In this document: in pieces, positions 121 to 6,997 of the stretch | Layout: the number at the start of each line of letters is the position of its first letter | Position numbering within the stretch: position 1 is the stretch's first letter | Assembly: GCA_021779435.1 (NCBI GenBank) | Contig: JAJYAR010000141.1 | Coordinates: forward strand, 1-7,086 | DNA from: a bacterium | GTDB taxonomy: Bacteria; Verrucomicrobiota; Verrucomicrobiae; JAJYAR01 | Direction of reading: 5' to 3' | Length of the DNA: 7,086 nt | The notes under the pieces: model-generated | What the model was told of the DNA's origin: nothing | The model's database searches: none | Seen by the model: only the letters and a program-made list of their open reading frames with translations | Program-made: the position numbers and the translations under genes

Positions 121-1518
121 AGCCCCAGCCGTTGCGTAACTACGCCAGAGTGCGACGAACACCGCTACTACGACACACACGGCTTCGCCGCAATGGACGG
201 AGTCGTGTACTCCGACCGCACGCCGCAGGTCGACTACTGGGTCGTCCGGAAGGCCTACTCACCCGTCCAGGTCAAGGAGCGCGAAGTCGCGGCCTCCCAA
301 AACGCGGACTCAATTCCGTTGCACGTGGAAAACCGCCACGACTTCCGCTCGCTGTCCGGCTTCACCCTGCGTTGGTCGCTGAAGCGCAATGGTGTCTCCG
401 TGCAGGATGGCTCGGTCGCGCTGTCCACCAAAGCGAAGCAGACCGAGACTGTGGCGATTCCCGCCCGGCTTCCCGCCGGTGCCGGCACCGACATCTTCAC
501 GCTGGAGCTGCGCTGCGTGGACGAAACCGGACGCCAGCTCTACGAACGCAGCCTGCAAGTGAACACCGGTGCGACGCGTGACAGCCGGTGGTCCGCGCTG
601 CTCGCAGCTCTGCGCGATGCCGCTCCCGTGCTCGAAGAATCCGCCGCGTCGGTCGTCGTCCGGCACTCCGCCTACCGGCTCGAGCTCGACCGCGCATCCG
701 GCCGGCTCGCGCTGCTGCGTCCCGACGGCTCATCGCTGGTGACGGCTTTCGGTCCGCACACCGGACGGAATCCAACCATCAACGATATGGGCAAGGGTCG
801 CGAGCGCCTCCCAAGCCTGTGGACGGGGAGCCTGCTCCGCGACCCGGCCGACGTGAAGACCGCGGTGCGCCGGACCGATGCCGGCATCGAGATTTCCGTG
901 TCGGGCCGCTACGTCCGACCCGACAAACCGGATGAGTCGGTGTCCGGCGGTTACACGCTGCTTGCGAAGGCAAACGGCACGATCGAGGTGAGCTACGCCT
1001 ACGCACCCGAGCACGCAACCGGCGACCTGCTCGAGGCAGGCCTCGCTCTCTCGGTGCCCGCACAGCAGTCGGAGTTCCAGTGGCTCGGGCAGGGCCCTTA
1101 CGCAGGGTATCCCGGCAAGGACCGTCAAAACGAATACGGCCTGTATCACCTCAACCGCGACGACCTCTACCTCCCCGGAAACCGCCGCGCCGTCGAGCTG
1201 GCCGCGTTCGCCCAGCCGTCCGGGCCCGGAGTGCTGCTTTCGGGCGAACGCATGACGCTCGACCTCGAGAACAAGGATGGCGCGACGATCTTGTCGCATC
1301 TGGCGCTCGTCCCGGGAGAACGCAGCACGAACGAGGGACAAGGGGAGAACGTCGACATTTCCTCCCGGCTGAAGGCGTCCTCAATCAAGTCGATTTCGGG
1401 CCGTTTCATCCTCATGCCGCTTTCCAACGAGTGGCCGTCCCACCTCGCCGCGTGGTTCGGCGCACCTGGCACACGCGTCCCTGTTACCAGGCCGTTCACC
1501 CGCAGTTACGATCAATAG
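121..1518 (+). pseudogene. GH2 beta-galactosidase, C-terminal fragment without catalytic domain
   Basis: This is the C-terminal half of a LacZ-type GH2 enzyme. The frame is open after a TAA at 97-99, but recognisable GH2 sequence begins only around 121-150 (TPECDEHRYYDTHG), so no native start exists; the first in-frame ATG is at 193. Counted from that ATG (441 residues), MDGVVYSDRTPQVDYW (1-16) is the end of the TIM barrel, comparable to the NG-V-xPDRTPHP stretch of LacZ. Residues about 25-125 form the following beta-sandwich (DUF4981/domain 4), and about 150-425 the Bgal_small_N mutarotase-like domain with the family motif WLGQGPYAGYPGKDRQ (297-312). Both catalytic glutamates of GH2 lie upstream of this fragment, so the piece cannot hydrolyse sugars as it stands. 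The intact parent would release terminal beta-galactose or a related sugar. The remainder shows no stop or frameshift, so truncation is recent or an artefact of assembly. GH115 follows 89 bases downstream on the same strand, suggesting they were once co-transcribed. Confidence 0.85.
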
Positions 1519-1607: not shown

Positions 1608-4181
1608 ATGAATTCCGTTCGCTCGTACTGTTCCGCTGCGCTCCTCGCTCTCCTCGCCCTTTCACCCCGGCTCTTCGGCGCCGTCTCGCTTATCGACCCG
1701 TCCCTCGACGCATCGGGTGGGTTTCCGCTTGTCGCGACCGGAGCCGCCGCGCCGATCGTGCTTCCCGCCGACGCACCCGAGGTCGTGAAGATCGCTGCCC
1801 GCGCGCTCGCGGCGGACATTGCCACCGTCTCCGGCGTCACCCCGAAGATCGTCGACAAGGGCGGTGCCCAGGCCCTCGGCCCGCGCGTCGAACTTGTCTT
1901 CGCGCCCGACCTCGCGGGACGCTGGGAAGCCTTCCGCCTCACCGCGACGCCCGAGGTTCTCACAATCGCCGCCTCCGACAAACGCGGGCTGGCGTACGGC
2001 ATCTACGACGTCTCCCGCCGGATCGGCGTCTCGCCGTGGAGCTGGTGGGCCGACGTTCCCGTGGCGCATCGCACGGAGCTGCGCCTCAGCACGGGCGCGG
2101 AGCCGGTCGATGAGCCCGCCGTTAAGTACCGCGGCATCTTCATCAACGACGAGGACTGGGGGCTGGAGCCGTGGGCCTCGAAGACGTTCGAGCCGGAGGT
2201 CGGCAACATCGGGCCGAAAACGTACTCGAAGATCTTCGACCTGATGCTTCGGCTGCGGGCCAATCTCCTCTGGCCGGGCATGCACCCGACGACGCGTCCG
2301 TTTCACACGGTGCCGGGCAACGCACAGGCGGCCGACGCCTACGCCATCATCGTCGGTTCGAGCCACGCCGAGCCGATGCTCCTCAACAACGGCAAGGAAT
2401 GGCCGGGCAAGCCCAACGAGTTCAACTATCTGACAAACCGCGACACCGTTTACGCGTATTGGGAAAAGCGGGTGCTGGAGCGCACGTCCGGCGAAAGCAT
2501 CTTCACGATCGGCATGCGCGGCATCAACGACTCGCCCATCATCGGACCGAAAACCGAGAAGGATCGCATCAGCACCTTGGAAAAGGTGTTCGTCGACCAG
2601 CGCAAGATGCTCGCCCAGCACCTGGGCAACGGGGATCCAACCCGCGTTCCGCAAATGTTCTGTCCCTACAAGGAAGTGCTCGACGACTACAATGCCGGGC
2701 TGCGCGTGCCGGAGGACGTCACGATCGTCTGGCCCGACGACAACTTCGGCTACATCCGCCGCTACGGCACCGCCGCCGAGCGCGCCCGCTCCGGCGGCCT
2801 GGGCGTGTATTACCATGCCTCGTACAGCGGACTTCCGATGTCCTGGCTCTGGATCGACGTCATGCCGCCGTCGCTCACGTGGTCGGAGATGACCCGGGCG
2901 TACGAGCAGGGCGCGAAAACCCTCTGGATCGTGAACGTCGGCGACATCAAGAACACCGAGCGCTCAATGGAGTTCTTCCTCGATCTTGCCTGGCACGCGA
3001 ACCGCACAGACGAGAACGCCCCGACCCGCTTCATCCGCGAATCCGCCGCGCGTGACTTCGGTCCCGCCGACGCCGACGCGATCGCGTCGCTGCTGCAGCG
3101 GCTGCAGACTTTCTCCGCGAACCGCCGGGCCGAACACCTGCAGTGGCATCTGTCGCTGGCGCCGTACGCCCCGACCGAGATGAACGAGTCGGAAATCGCC
3201 GAGCGGCTCCGCACCGCCGCCGACCTGAAACGGGAGAGCGATGCGATCGCAGCCAGGCTCCACGCGGAGTTTCGCGACGCCTATTTCGAGCTCGTTGCAT
3301 ACCCTGTCGCGATCACTGCGGGCGCCAACCAGCGGTATTTTTACGCGGAACTGGCGCGCGCCGATATCGCCCGCGGTCGTGACCCGAAGCCGAATCTCGC
3401 CGGCGCAGAGGAGGGACAGAATCTCATCACCGCAGCGACGAAGCGGTACCATGAGGCCGTCGCCGACGGCAAATGGCGGTACATCGTGAGCGAAAATGGC
3501 TATTCGCCGGGTGCCTGGCCGCGCTTCCAGCGCGACGTCAAAACCCCGAGGCCGGAGCCCGCACCCGACAATGTTGCGCCGCCGGCCGTGCCAGCTCCCT
3601 CACCGTTCCAAAAGCCAGAAGGCGCCCGTCCCGGCGACTTCGTCGAACGTGACGGCGTCGTTTCAATCCACGCAGGCGACTTCACCGCCCGGACCGACCT
3701 TTCCTCCGATGCCGGCTGGCGAGTGATCCCCGGCCTCGGCCGGACCGGATCCGCGGTCACCGTCCTGCCTTCGTCCGCGAAACTCCCGTCAGGCGCGACG
3801 CCGACGCTCGACTATCGCTTCCACGTGGCGACCGGCGGCCACGCCAATGTCCGCGTGCGGTTCCTGCCGACGTATCCGATCGTTCCCGATCAGGGACTAC
3901 GCGTCGCAATCGCGATCGACGGCGCCGAGCCAGTGCCCGTCTCCATCACCACAGGTTTCGACAACAAGCGCTCCGACGCCGGGATGACGCAGTGGCAGCG
4001 CCGTGTTCTCGCAAACGCCACCGAGGCAACCGTGCAGCTTTCCGCGCCGATCACATCCGGCTGGCACACGCTCCGGCTGGTGGCGGTGGATACCGGTGTG
4101 GTGGTCGACAAGATCACCGTGGAGTTCGGCCCCGTGCCCAAGTCGTACGACGGTCCCGCCGAAACAAGGATCGCGAAGTAG
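1608..4181 (+). CDS. Secreted glycoside hydrolase family 115 (xylan alpha-glucuronidase type)
   Basis: GH115 enzymes remove (4-O-methyl-)alpha-D-glucuronic acid side chains from glucuronoxylan; some members may accept other glucuronosyl polysaccharides. The product has 857 residues, near the usual length. Residues 1-24 are a signal peptide (hydrophobic LLALLALSP, likely cleavage after FGA), so it works in the periplasm or outside. About 45-160 is the N-terminal domain. The TIM barrel at about 170-480 shows family motifs in order: KYRGIFINDEDWG (173-185), LWPGMHP (221-227), GSSHAEPM (250-257), IGMRG (301-305), FCPYKEVLDDYNAGLRVPED (351-370), VWPDDNFGYIRR (374-385), YYHASYSG (401-408) and WIVNVGDIK (440-448). 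A helical region follows (about 485-640), then an unusual proline-rich linker (about 645-670) and the C-terminal beta-sandwich of the family (about 680-845; GRTGSAV 711-717). The ATG at 1608 is chosen because the signal peptide starts there; the frame is open further upstream but overlaps GH2. No Shine-Dalgarno-like sequence precedes it. The acidic residues in the motifs are candidates for catalysis, not mapped individually. Confidence 0.93.
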   Translation: MNSVRSYCSAALLALLALSPRLFGAVSLIDPSLDASGGFPLVATGAAAPIVLPADAPEVVKIAARALAADIATVSGVTPKIVDKGGAQALGPRVELVFAPDLAGRWEAFRLTATPEVLTIAASDKRGLAYGIYDVSRRIGVSPWSWWADVPVAHRTELRLSTGAEPVDEPAVKYRGIFINDEDWGLEPWASKTFEPEVGNIGPKTYSKIFDLMLRLRANLLWPGMHPTTRPFHTVPGNAQAADAYAIIVGSSHAEPMLLNNGKEWPGKPNEFNYLTNRDTVYAYWEKRVLERTSGESIFTIGMRGINDSPIIGPKTEKDRISTLEKVFVDQRKMLAQHLGNGDPTRVPQMFCPYKEVLDDYNAGLRVPEDVTIVWPDDNFGYIRRYGTAAERARSGGLGVYYHASYSGLPMSWLWIDVMPPSLTWSEMTRAYEQGAKTLWIVNVGDIKNTERSMEFFLDLAWHANRTDENAPTRFIRESAARDFGPADADAIASLLQRLQTFSANRRAEHLQWHLSLAPYAPTEMNESEIAERLRTAADLKRESDAIAARLHAEFRDAYFELVAYPVAITAGANQRYFYAELARADIARGRDPKPNLAGAEEGQNLITAATKRYHEAVADGKWRYIVSENGYSPGAWPRFQRDVKTPRPEPAPDNVAPPAVPAPSPFQKPEGARPGDFVERDGVVSIHAGDFTARTDLSSDAGWRVIPGLGRTGSAVTVLPSSAKLPSGATPTLDYRFHVATGGHANVRVRFLPTYPIVPDQGLRVAIAIDGAEPVPVSITTGFDNKRSDAGMTQWQRRVLANATEATVQLSAPITSGWHTLRLVAVDTGVVVDKITVEFGPVPKSYDGPAETRIAK

Positions 4182-4194
4182 CCCAACCTGGTTG

Positions 4195-4221
4195 AACAGA
4201 AGGCCACGAAGGGAACGAAGT
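4195..4221 (+). repeat. 9-base periodic module, copy 1 (left arm)
   Basis: Three tandem 9-mers, AACAGAAGG, CCACGAAGG and GAACGAAGT, make up most of the left palindrome arm. They share the pattern xxCxRAAGG-like with CGAAG in units two and three. The same three-unit order recurs in the right arm and near 6897. I do not recognise a named repeat family with certainty. Confidence 0.7.
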
Positions 4222-4347
4222 CCGCGATTTTAGCCGCAGAGGGCATGGTCGGCGCGCCTCGGATCGACTTCACCACACGGGTGGCGCTACCGAGCGCCGA
4301 GCTGCGCGAGGCGAGAAGGTGGCGCCGCGGCTTCGTGTCTGCCAGGC

Positions 4348-4374
4348 CCTTCGTTTCCTTCGTTGCCTTCTGTT
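4348..4374 (-). repeat. 9-base periodic module, copy 2 (right arm, inverted)
   Basis: Read on the minus strand the units are AACAGAAGG, CAACGAAGG and AAACGAAGG. They keep the unit order and period of copy 1 exactly; within the 9-mers they differ from copy 1 at one base in unit two and two in unit three. Confidence 0.7.
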
Positions 4375-4399
4375 CAACAGCCTAGGTTCGTCTCCCCCT

Positions 4400-6715
4400 T
4401 CATCCAATCACCGCCACCTCGTGGTCCAGGATCGAAGGAATTTCGAACCGCGCCCACGCGTCCTGTACCGTCATGCGGGACGCTGCCCGACCGACCAGCA
4501 ACCGCAAATCGCGCCCGCGCACACCGTCCGGGAGCTTCACGGAAACCGTGACGGGCCCGACCGGAATCAGCTCGTCGACCGGCGCACGCCAGGCACCGGC
4601 GCTCGTCAGGTTCACCAGATGAAGGATCACCCGGTCGCGCTGACGGTAGAGGTGGCAGTCGATCCAGCCGCGGCCTTCCACACGCACCGGGATCTCGTCG
4701 CGCGCCGTCCAGCGAACGACGTTCGCGAGCAGCGTCGAATAGTCCGGCAGGTTGTCGCGTGCGAAGCGTCGATCGAGATCGGCGGGAAGGAAGGCAACTC
4801 GGCCCGCTCCGTTTCCTTCGTTGAGCACCAGCGCCGGAATGTCAGTCCGGGGCTCCTTCATCCAGGACATCTCGGGCGGTGATACCGGGAACGCTCCAAC
4901 GAACGTCGCGAGCACCTTCGCAGCCGGGTCGATGCGAAGCGGTTCCAGTGTTCCTCCGAACGGAAGGATGTCGGTCTCATCGAAGCCGCGGAAGATGGGA
5001 TGCCGGGCTGCTGTGACCGGCGGTTCGGACGCAACATGCGGCCCGCCGACGCGCGATGCCAGCGACGGCGTGAGGCGTAGATACGTGTGCGCAGCGGCCG
5101 TCGCCCAACGGCGGCGAATGGCTTCGTCCCGCGCTCCGTGTCCCGCGGGCAGATGTGCCCCGAAGAGATCGGCCAGGCCATAGTCGTCGCGGCACTCTCC
5201 CCACTCGTTGGCGAGGCTGCTGTGGCCGGTGGCAAGAAGTCCTCCGCCTTTCGCCACGAAACGCCTCACCGCGGCCAGCTGTACGTCGGACATCGCCGCG
5301 AGATTCGGCAGGATCAGCGTGCGCAACTGCGCGCCGTCGCGCTCGAGGTGGTCGAGATGCACCGGCAGGTACGGGATCCGCGCGCGAACCAGCGCGTGCA
5401 TGAAGCCGACCATCGGTTGCCCCGTGACGAGTTCAGCTTCATCACGCCCGAAGAAGTCCTCGTTGCGCTGCGACCAGGCCACGCCGACGGTCGCGATCGG
5501 CGTTCTGTTCACGAGGAACTCCTCGTTCTCCCGATGCCAGCGCATGATCGGCTCCGCCGTCCTGAACTGCCGCCGATCCTCCTGATACGCGCCAACGTGA
5601 TGCCACCACGGCTGAATCCCTCCGGCGAAACCCTCGAGCATCCACATCCGCGCCTCCGGCTCGGGTTTGCTCGAAACGCGGAACGTGGGGCTCGTCGTCT
5701 GGTACATCGCCATGCTCTCAGGCATCACCTTGTCCCAGCCGAGCAGCCCGTGAACGAGCTTGCCCACGTGCCCGTTGCGCTGGAAACCCGTCGCATCCCG
5801 GCGACGCTGGTCATCGAGCATGAGCATTTCCGCGCGCTCACAAATGGCCTTCGTGTCGCGGAACTGTTCTCCCTGTCCCGCCATGTCGCCGCCGTTCATG
5901 CCGACCCACAGGCACTCGGGCCCGCCGGCCTCGCGCGTCACCCGGTTGTTCTGGTCCCAGATTTCGAGACGCCGTTCGTAGTTCCAAACGACCCATTCCC
6001 GATAGAGGGGGTTGTTCCAGTCGCGGGTCCGAGGGATCGCCTGCCCGGTCCGCGCGCGAAACTTCCGCTCGCAATTTGGACAGAAGCACGGGCTGTTTCG
6101 GCCGAGTCCGCTCCAGCTGTTGTCGGTGAATCCTTCGGGACGATAGCGCGTGGCAACCTCCCGGAGGATCGCCGGAATATGCTCGTCGTAGTACGGGCTG
6201 TTGACGCAGGTCACCCAGAGGTCGCGGTTTCGGTAAGGTTTTCCCGACGCATCCACCGCGAACCAATCGGGGTGCGCCTTGTAGAAATCCTCGTGGGCCG
6301 TGTTGGAGTCCATGCGCGCGAACACCACGATCCCGTCGTCATGGGCGGCGCGGCAAAGGTCGCCAAAGAGGTCGCGATCACCGAGCCCCGAAGCGCGATG
6401 CTGGAGCGGCAGCACACTGGGGTAGTACGCGACGATGCCGCCGGCATTGATGACAAGGCCCTGAACGGCGGTGCGTTTCCAGTGCTCGCGCCACCAGCCA
6501 ATGTCGTAGCGGGTCGGATCGATCTCGGTGATGTTGGTCTGGCCCCAGCGGATTGTCCGCCGAAACCACGGCTGGCTGTCGGGCCGGGCGCCGGCGGGCG
6601 CTGCCATCGGGGCCGGCGCCTGGGCTGCGTAGGCGGAGCGAAGGGCGTCCACCGCCGAGAGCATCGCGATGCCGGCGACGGATTTTTTGAGAAAACTGCG
6701 GCGGGTTTCGTTCAT
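4400..6715 (-). CDS. Tat-exported GH42/GHL6-like glycoside hydrolase with trimerisation-type domain
   Basis: The 771-residue product starts MNETRRSFLKKSVAG: a twin-arginine motif (RRSFLK, 5-10), a hydrophobic stretch and a YAA-type cleavage near 29-32, so it is exported folded by the Tat system. About 50-400 is a TIM barrel of the GH42-like/hypothetical glycosyl hydrolase 6 kind: WGQTNITEIDP (57-67), INAGGIVAYYPS (89-100), VFARMDSN (131-138), WVTCVNSPYY (167-176), FTDNSWSGLGRNSPCFCPNC (196-215), LMLDDQRRR (298-306) and GGIQPWWHHVG (365-375). About 405-550 resembles the beta-galactosidase trimerisation domain (Rossmann-like), with LILPNLAAMSD (467-477) and FVAKGGGLLATG (486-497). A small beta-rich C-terminal region follows (about 675-770). 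The ATG at 6715 is placed just before the Tat signal; no Shine-Dalgarno-like sequence precedes it. The gene converges on GH115. Its substrate is unknown; a beta-galactosidase-like or fucosidase-like exo-activity is possible. The glutamate that follows Asn in GH42 (NE, acid/base) is not evident at the equivalent place. Confidence 0.85.
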   Translation of the reverse strand: MNETRRSFLKKSVAGIAMLSAVDALRSAYAAQAPAPMAAPAGARPDSQPWFRRTIRWGQTNITEIDPTRYDIGWWREHWKRTAVQGLVINAGGIVAYYPSVLPLQHRASGLGDRDLFGDLCRAAHDDGIVVFARMDSNTAHEDFYKAHPDWFAVDASGKPYRNRDLWVTCVNSPYYDEHIPAILREVATRYRPEGFTDNSWSGLGRNSPCFCPNCERKFRARTGQAIPRTRDWNNPLYREWVVWNYERRLEIWDQNNRVTREAGGPECLWVGMNGGDMAGQGEQFRDTKAICERAEMLMLDDQRRRDATGFQRNGHVGKLVHGLLGWDKVMPESMAMYQTTSPTFRVSSKPEPEARMWMLEGFAGGIQPWWHHVGAYQEDRRQFRTAEPIMRWHRENEEFLVNRTPIATVGVAWSQRNEDFFGRDEAELVTGQPMVGFMHALVRARIPYLPVHLDHLERDGAQLRTLILPNLAAMSDVQLAAVRRFVAKGGGLLATGHSSLANEWGECRDDYGLADLFGAHLPAGHGARDEAIRRRWATAAAHTYLRLTPSLASRVGGPHVASEPPVTAARHPIFRGFDETDILPFGGTLEPLRIDPAAKVLATFVGAFPVSPPEMSWMKEPRTDIPALVLNEGNGAGRVAFLPADLDRRFARDNLPDYSTLLANVVRWTARDEIPVRVEGRGWIDCHLYRQRDRVILHLVNLTSAGAWRAPVDELIPVGPVTVSVKLPDGVRGRDLRLLVGRAASRMTVQDAWARFEIPSILDHEVAVIG

Positions 6716-6779
6716 CGGAGGGACAGGGATTAGCGCTGCGGGTAGAGCGTTTGGACCGCCGGCGCGGTTACGGAAGGAT

Positions 6780-6807
6780 GCGCCATTCGGCGCACGTCTG
6801 CCAGACG
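6780..6807. promoter_or_regulatory. Two adjacent palindromes upstream of the hydrolase gene, possible operators
   Basis: GCGCC-ATTC-GGCGC (6780-6793) is followed after one base by CGTCTG-C-CAGACG (6795-6807). They sit 65 to 92 bases upstream of the ATG at 6715 on the minus strand, a position suitable for regulator binding sites or for an RNA hairpin in the leader. No regulator gene is present in the window, and I cannot match them to a known operator consensus. Confidence 0.3.
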
Positions 6808-6840
6808 CACCGAAAAAGAATTAAGTGCGAGTGTCTGCAT

Positions 6841-6865
6841 GTAGGAGCAGATTTATCTGCGATGG
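6841..6865 (+). repeat. REP-like palindrome, copy 1
   Basis: The 25-base sequence opens with the tetranucleotide GTAG and contains the palindrome GCAGAT-TT-ATCTGC, followed by GATGG. This is the architecture of REP sequences mobilised by RAYT (REP-associated tyrosine) transposases: GTAG/GGAG head, imperfect foldback, short tail. An identical copy lies at 6973. Right after it GCGAT-GG-ATCGC (6859-6870) can form an alternative hairpin. No RAYT gene is in the window. Confidence 0.8.
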
Positions 6866-6896
6866 ATCGCTGCCACGCAAAAACCGATCCGGTTAT

Positions 6897-6923
6897 CACA
6901 GGAGGCAACGGAGGGAACGGAGG
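6897..6923 (+). repeat. 9-base periodic module, copy 3 (solitary variant)
   Basis: Three tandem 9-mers: CACAGGAGG, CAACGGAGG and GAACGGAGG. The period and unit order equal those of the palindrome arms at 4195 and 4348, but position 6 of each unit is G instead of A. It is preceded by GGTT (6891-6894), as in the left arm (4190-4193). No inverted partner is visible between 6716 and 7086. Confidence 0.7.
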
Positions 6924-6972
6924 AGCCGATCGTCGCTGAGGTGTCACATCCGAACTCTGCTCCGGTCCGCCT

Positions 6973-6997
6973 GTAGGAGCAGATTTATCTGCGATGG
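6973..6997 (+). repeat. REP-like palindrome, copy 2
   Basis: Identical over 25 bases to the copy at 6841 and in the same orientation, 132 bases further on. The preceding bases are also similar (GTCTGCAT before copy 1, GTCCGCCT before copy 2). It is followed by a second hairpin GCCCG-ACGTG-CGGGC (7000-7014), which copy 1 does not have. Confidence 0.8.

Follow-up and report, generated by a model that had tools for sequence, protein, structure and literature searches.

The window analysed here is the whole 7,086-nt stretch (positions 1 to 7,086 of contig JAJYAR010000141.1, assembly GCA_021779435.1, from a member of the Verrucomicrobiae), and it contains copies of a short repeat module made of three similar 9-nt units. 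On balance, these copies are probably members, lacking an open reading frame (ORF) and thus non-autonomous like miniature inverted-repeat transposable elements (MITEs), of a small inverted-repeat family that is linked to the GxxExxY nuclease, and the base that changes in concert in their units belongs to the recognition word of this family. Each arm of such an element holds three 7-nt words at 8-10 nt spacing, with largely free spacer bases. We infer that the word in each unit is read on DNA by the GxxExxY nuclease or by a complex of which it is part, that the arms are the sites where elements are recognised, cut and then moved or copied, and that ORF-less copies are mobilised in trans. A change of a recognised base would persist when all units carry it, which would explain the concerted A/G change. 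The case in the window is one instance of a wider rule, in which the repeated word of an element tends to change as a set.

In 9-mer register, the module at 4195-4221 reads AACAGAAGG CCACGAAGG GAACGAAGT, the reverse complement of the module at 4348-4374 reads AACAGAAGG CAACGAAGG AAACGAAGG, and the module at 6897-6923 reads CACAGGAGG CAACGGAGG GAACGGAGG. Direct reading thus confirmed the initial annotation, which had described three modules with the same A-to-G change at position 6 in all three units of the third. As it had also proposed, the first two modules are inverted: they form the arms of a 30-nt inverted repeat (I1, here element 1; Table 1) with 93% complementarity, and inverted pairs are common elsewhere too. 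The 128 nt between these arms are fewer than the 117 positions of the GxxExxY domain would require, therefore element 1 is ORF-less. Three 7-nt words at 8-10 nt spacing are present in each of its arms, with CACGAAG in the left arm and ACAGAAG as the first word of both arms as deviations. The pair occupies the gap between two convergent genes (ends at 4181 and 4400), and the third module is found upstream of the GHL6 gene; a possible second arm for it, decayed and at about 6955-6974, was not significant (242 of 2000 shuffles scored as high). A 22-letter pattern in which the A/G base was left free had four matches in the window with up to three mismatches, compared with a mean of 0.02 and a maximum of 1 in 200 shuffles. 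Three of them are the modules (0-1 mismatch), and the fourth, at 4807-4828 with three mismatches and within a gene, is probably due to chance.

The repeat is widely dispersed. With no letter fixed at the variable base, the family pattern (GNAGGNAACGNAGGNAACGNAG) was found at 120 loci or more. Most copies in Verrucomicrobiota, Planctomycetota and Lentisphaerota are preceded by ACA and often, further ahead, by a T-rich stretch, and in many cases an inverted partner lies no more than 200 bp away; the matches in Streptomyces, Butyrivibrio, Lactobacillus and other taxa frequently form longer tandem arrays. Ten genomes picked from the pattern loci carried 11-154 copies each (up to two mismatches) versus 0-9 for the reversed pattern. 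Among 288 sampled genomes from the phylum of G002, an Opitutaceae metagenome-assembled genome (MAG), the pattern was present in 35, with at least three matches in 19. The arms are mostly intergenic: only 15 of 340 distinct arms at the fetched loci lay within genes called with a simple codon-usage caller, and these genes cover 75% of the bases. A further 45 were located at locus edges and 280 could be placed between two called genes, 39 of them convergent, 182 tandem and 59 divergent, compared with 65, 201 and 70 among 336 gaps of at least 60 bp. A preference for convergent gaps, as suggested from the window, was therefore not recovered. Some arms contain extra tandem units (for example L122, L157 and L195). 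Terminal inverted repeats, as in the window pair, and dispersed copies, as in related genomes, are both features of MITEs.

The coherence of the variable base was analysed in 132 distinct inverted pairs (264 arms). AAA was found in 113 arms, GGG in 95 and all other combinations in 56. The two arms of a pair agreed at the three A/G positions in 0.90, 0.88 and 0.80 of pairs (expected 0.50, 0.50 and 0.48). One spacer base was slightly coherent between arms (0.39 versus 0.31 expected), and all remaining positions, including those that vary in 14-28% of arms, were no more than 0.03 from the expected agreement. In G003, where both classes are present, the same base occupied all three units in 61 of 85 distinct arms (0.72 versus 0.25 expected), and 57 of 61 arms were uniform in G002 (0.93 versus 0.83). 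The concerted change noticed in the window thus holds genome-wide and reaches the partner arm. Spacers between the units, 1-4 nt from the coherent base, showed no such effect in G003 (spacer 1, 0.75 versus 0.77 expected; spacer 2, 0.26 versus 0.24). Because the A/G base is coherent over six units and its neighbours are not, the data argue against unit copying and against selection on stem pairing, and fit a recognised word. The initial annotation had offered either unit-wise copying or selection, for instance by a repeat-recognising protein; the second half is the better one, and the first was not supported. In arms with unlike units, it is often the middle unit that deviates: AGA is the commonest mixed class (18 arms), and among the matches listed for another word, CACTAAT, 12 of 22 one-mismatch arms in G316 deviate in the middle unit only. 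A deviant middle unit is mirrored across both arms in L374, L352 and L286.

In a MAG labelled Chthoniobacter flavus, the arms of one pair (L123; same place as L102) enclose a GxxExxY-family ORF (TIGR04256, 140.7 bits, cut-off 35; PF13366, 136.8 bits). PF13366 genes are present in all ten chosen genomes, and in seven of them arms of the window's class lie on both sides of such a gene (G009 L305, G008 L309, G004 L316, G005 L314, G007 L318, G002 L327 and G010 C185:206834). No flanked gene was seen in G001, G003 and G006 among the loci examined, which are part of their matches. Among the copies seen, the A/G class of the arms that flank the gene matches that of the dispersed copies in the same genome. 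The residues D, E and K, the presumed active site as in the PD-(D/E)XK superfamily, are present in 117, 115 and 117 of 118 domains, respectively. An AlphaFold2 model of the L102 protein has the order helix-helix-strand-strand-strand-helix-strand (mean pLDDT 72.6). A sequence search of solved structures gave no match, and no GxxExxY match was found in phages. Some GxxExxY genes (L303, L291 and L435) have complete ORF-less pairs with the same word on either side, an arrangement like that of a composite element.

Arms at GxxExxY genes are not restricted to the window's word. A profile search gave 128 domains in 122 loci; after removal of six duplicate or weak ones and four whose flanks were short, 118 remained for the test. 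At 96 of them, the flanks held an inverted repeat with a score of at least 30, versus 61 of 1770 flank combinations across loci and 2 of 118 when flanks were reversed without complementing. Among ordinary called genes of about 90-200 aa, 2 of 72 reached this score, and both proved to be GxxExxY loci. In most of the repeats, a 7-nt word that is specific to the element occurs three times at intervals of 8-10 nt (CACAGAG, CACGAAG, CGCCAAG, CACTAAT, CACGAAT, CACGGAT, ACAGGAT, CACGACG and others). Median identity over the six units was 0.88 for an element's own arms, 0.68 in the cross-arm comparison and 0.50 after shuffling. It was at least 0.84 in 60 of the 96 elements, and some of the remainder have no word triplets. 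Lag identity in these arms peaks at 9 (0.40). In other phyla, mostly Planctomycetota, 13 of 21 further loci scored at least 34 with crude flank windows, and six of the eight misses were truncated loci. Plasmid-borne GxxExxY genes gave eight matches, and four of the seven fetched cases had arms scoring at least 36 (Bacteroides finegoldii, Gemmatirosa kalamazoonensis, Sphingomonas parapaucimobilis and Bernardetia); the other three did not. The Sphingomonas element is located between fabD and fabG. A parallel is seen at four-helix-bundle genes (PF05635, 23S IVP), whose inverted arms are of like design with 7-bp units.

The word of the dispersed copies goes with that of the gene, and elements turn over between two related species. 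G010 has a GxxExxY element with the word CACTAAT (arms at C132:19215 and 19684, gene in between) and 60 CACTAAT triplets with up to three mismatches, versus none in the control. G316 has 64 such triplets, and 5 of 11 genomes searched have none. Among the three-mismatch CACTAAT matches listed for G002, G010 and G316, 19 of 33 carry the same change in all three units, and nine of these 19 come from a pair of G010 contigs that have segments in duplicate. G316 lacks one of the GxxExxY elements of G010; its equivalent gap holds different sequence, so that this is not a clean empty site. Another element is common to both species, and an extra ORF-less pair is located beside the G316 one. In G010, 17 ORF-less copies of the window's class have in common a unit that is about 187 bp long and has inverted outer ends. 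In the 4 bp on either side of these copies, 42 of 68 positions match, versus 27.9 after permutation (0 of 5000 as high), and the match is exact in 7 of the 17. A scan for ORF-less pairs of any word gave 102 matches versus 160 in the reversed control, and the named cases from it are used as illustrations only. A fixed-gap pattern with an ill-chosen tail gave six matches in four genomes.

Several observations weigh against a recognised word and a nuclease that moves these elements. The window itself contains no GxxExxY gene. Strict coherence is broken by the recurring AGA class (18 of 264 arms), 35 of 48 arms are uniform in G007 without any excess (0.73 versus 0.74 expected), and in G005, CACTAAT and CGCTAAT-type units occur together in each of the 23 arms listed. 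The GxxExxY loci are mostly best-scoring matches and no random sample, and 22 of the 118 have no repeat at the threshold. Protein identity and word distance are correlated among 60 elements (Mantel r -0.45, 0 of 999 permutations), which speaks for the proposed reading, although co-inheritance alone may yield it. Also in its favour, PF13366 occurs in 31 of 35 genomes with the pattern versus 133 of 253 without it, and in 19 of 19 with at least three matches versus 145 of 269 others; these figures are uncorrected for genome size. Fold matches to solved structures were weak and mixed, therefore the PD-(D/E)XK assignment rests on the family profile and the conserved residues. GxxExxY elements showed no convincing target duplications (direct repeats of at least 5 nt at 16 of 56 loci versus 9.1 expected, the longer ones mostly A-rich, are not used as evidence), and the outer ends of the G010 ORF-less copies were not seen around the GxxExxY element of the same class. 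Since outer ends and duplications were not seen at the GxxExxY elements, another enzyme may move the ORF-less copies.

One alternative is that the palindromic repeats existed beforehand and were moved by another enzyme, and that GxxExxY is a homing-type invader that inserts itself between arms, cutting or marking those that are unoccupied. Outer ends and 4-bp duplications are found at the 17 G010 copies and neither at the GxxExxY elements, which would agree with such an invader, as would the whole ORF-less pairs that flank some GxxExxY genes (L303, L291, L309 and L435) and the gene element that was kept at the same site in two species while the ORF-less copies differ. However, word and nuclease diverge together across elements, and because the words differ so widely, invasion of ready-made arms would require a match each time. 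We therefore regard a homing invader as rather unlikely.

It is likewise unlikely, in our view, that the repeats act at the RNA level as stem-loops comparable to the intervening sequences (IVS) of 23S rRNA, in which the arms would pair in the transcript, RNase III would cut, some loops would carry an ORF, and pairing in slipped registers as well would make the units coherent. The outline is similar: one report describes the Coxiella IVS as a selfish element with inverted-repeat borders around a small S23p ORF (PMC4990558). Genes of the corresponding family PF05635 (four-helix bundle, 23S IVP) are present in 66 of 96 genomes, and of 30 loci fetched, 22 of the 29 that were long enough have flanking inverted repeats, versus 20 of 812 in the cross control. 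The arms of these intergenic genes are modular too, with 7-bp periodicity (lag-7 identity 0.63) and locus-specific units (L392-L421). The mirroring of a deviant unit in the other arm of several GxxExxY elements would also be expected from pairing. However, the variable positions other than A/G do not covary between arms, and three similar units are unnecessary for pairing. In transcript orientation, the core arms of 68 pairs between tandem genes have 22 G-U, 42 A-C and 42 other mismatches, and the GxxExxY arms have 104, 101 and 221, so that G-U is not preferred in either set. The window's elements further differ from 23S IVS in that they are intergenic and ORF-less, with element 1 placed between two protein genes, and in that the gene linked to them codes for a nuclease and their units measure about 9 bp. 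An Rfam search of the window gave no match, and no rRNA was found in it. Selection on hairpin pairing was also considered as such and rejected, since outside the A/G base only one small spacer covariation and no G-U preference were found.

Homogenisation of the units by unit-wise copying, slippage or gene conversion might account for the extra tandem units of some arms, but it is very improbable because neighbouring spacers would have been homogenised too, and they were not. A role of the inverted pair as bidirectional terminator or other gene-end device agrees with the position of the window pair in a convergent gap and is as improbable, given that arms elsewhere are no more often convergent than gaps are, that the stem has T runs on its 5' side and A runs on its 3' side, the opposite of an intrinsic terminator, and that presence among genomes is patchy.

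Compared with known systems, the definition of the GxxExxY family (NCBIfam TIGR04256 / Pfam PF13366 PDDEXK_3), to which the gene between window-class arms in related genomes belongs, covers the protein only and includes neither modular arms nor ORF-less copies. MITEs resemble the window's elements as short, dispersed, non-coding inverted repeats, and the matching 4-bp flanks in G010, which may be target duplications, would add to this likeness; here, however, the arms are triplets of an element-specific word that is common to the arms of a nuclease gene, and no transposase was identified. Repetitive extragenic palindromic (REP) or GTAG palindromes moved by RAYTs are dispersed and intergenic as well, and O. 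terrae is highly enriched in GTAG repeats according to a published study (PMC3733652). Unlike these, the 9-mer modules have no GTAG/CGTC tag, and none was found at the arms of element 1 by direct reading. In the literature searched, a coverage that excludes most subscription journals, GxxExxY is named in two papers, both times in passing, and PF13366 in one, and no account of an arm-nuclease link was found among titles and abstracts.

The genes of the window are listed with the repeat elements in Table 1. The contig comes from an Opitutaceae-like bacterium: the top ten relatives listed for the GHL6 protein show 70-73% identity, and those named are from Opitutaceae or Verrucomicrobia. Two direct repeats at 6833-6865 and 6965-6997, 94% identical and containing TGTAGGAGCAGATTTATCTGC, flank the third module and resemble GTAG-type REP palindromes; they are a feature separate from the 9-mer modules. 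Positions 1-135, ahead of the beta-galactosidase-like gene that lacks its 5' part, appear AT-rich by eye and are possibly an assembly junction. A minus-strand frame in this segment resembles a Sel1-type repeat.

Table 1. Genes and repeat elements in the window (A and G class refer to the variable base of the word).
Feature	Positions	Strand	Details
Beta-galactosidase-like gene, 3' part	193-1518		without its 5' part
GH115-family gene	1608-4181	+	Pfam PF15979 394.8 bits, PF17829 144.3 bits; stops just ahead of element 1
Element 1, left arm	4191-4220	+	ACAGAAG 4196-4202, CACGAAG 4205-4211, AACGAAG 4214-4220; 2-nt spacers; A class; pattern match with 1 mismatch
Element 1, interior	4221-4348		128 nt; ORF-less
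Element 1, right arm	4349-4378	-	AACGAAG 4349-4355, AACGAAG 4358-4364, ACAGAAG 4367-4373; A class; exact pattern match
GHL6 / GH42-like gene	4400-6715	-	Pfam PF14871 64.7 bits, PF02449 30.2 bits; convergent with the GH115-family gene
Second copy, single arm	6898-6922	+	ACAGGAG 6898-6904, AACGGAG 6907-6913, AACGGAG 6916-6922; G class; exact pattern match

More generally, it is tempting to speculate that these repeats represent an undescribed class of selfish elements in several phyla, in which a tiny PD-(D/E)XK nuclease reads a 7-nt word present in six copies over two inverted arms, word and nuclease co-diverge, and swarms of ORF-less copies are moved in trans, with the four-helix-bundle/IVP family having the same architecture with 7-bp units; we put this forward tentatively, as a possibility with somewhat less than even chances. 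If it is true, the joint divergence of word and nuclease would provide dozens of natural word-nuclease pairs and a readable specificity code, from which it could be learned how a compact nuclease shifts its DNA specificity. The GxxExxY and four-helix-bundle/IVP proteins of many environmental bacteria gain a genomic context and a testable substrate, and a common class of intergenic repeats is tied to two families of small proteins. Since several sites of one element change together, these elements also offer a testable case of co-evolution between a protein and its repeated site.

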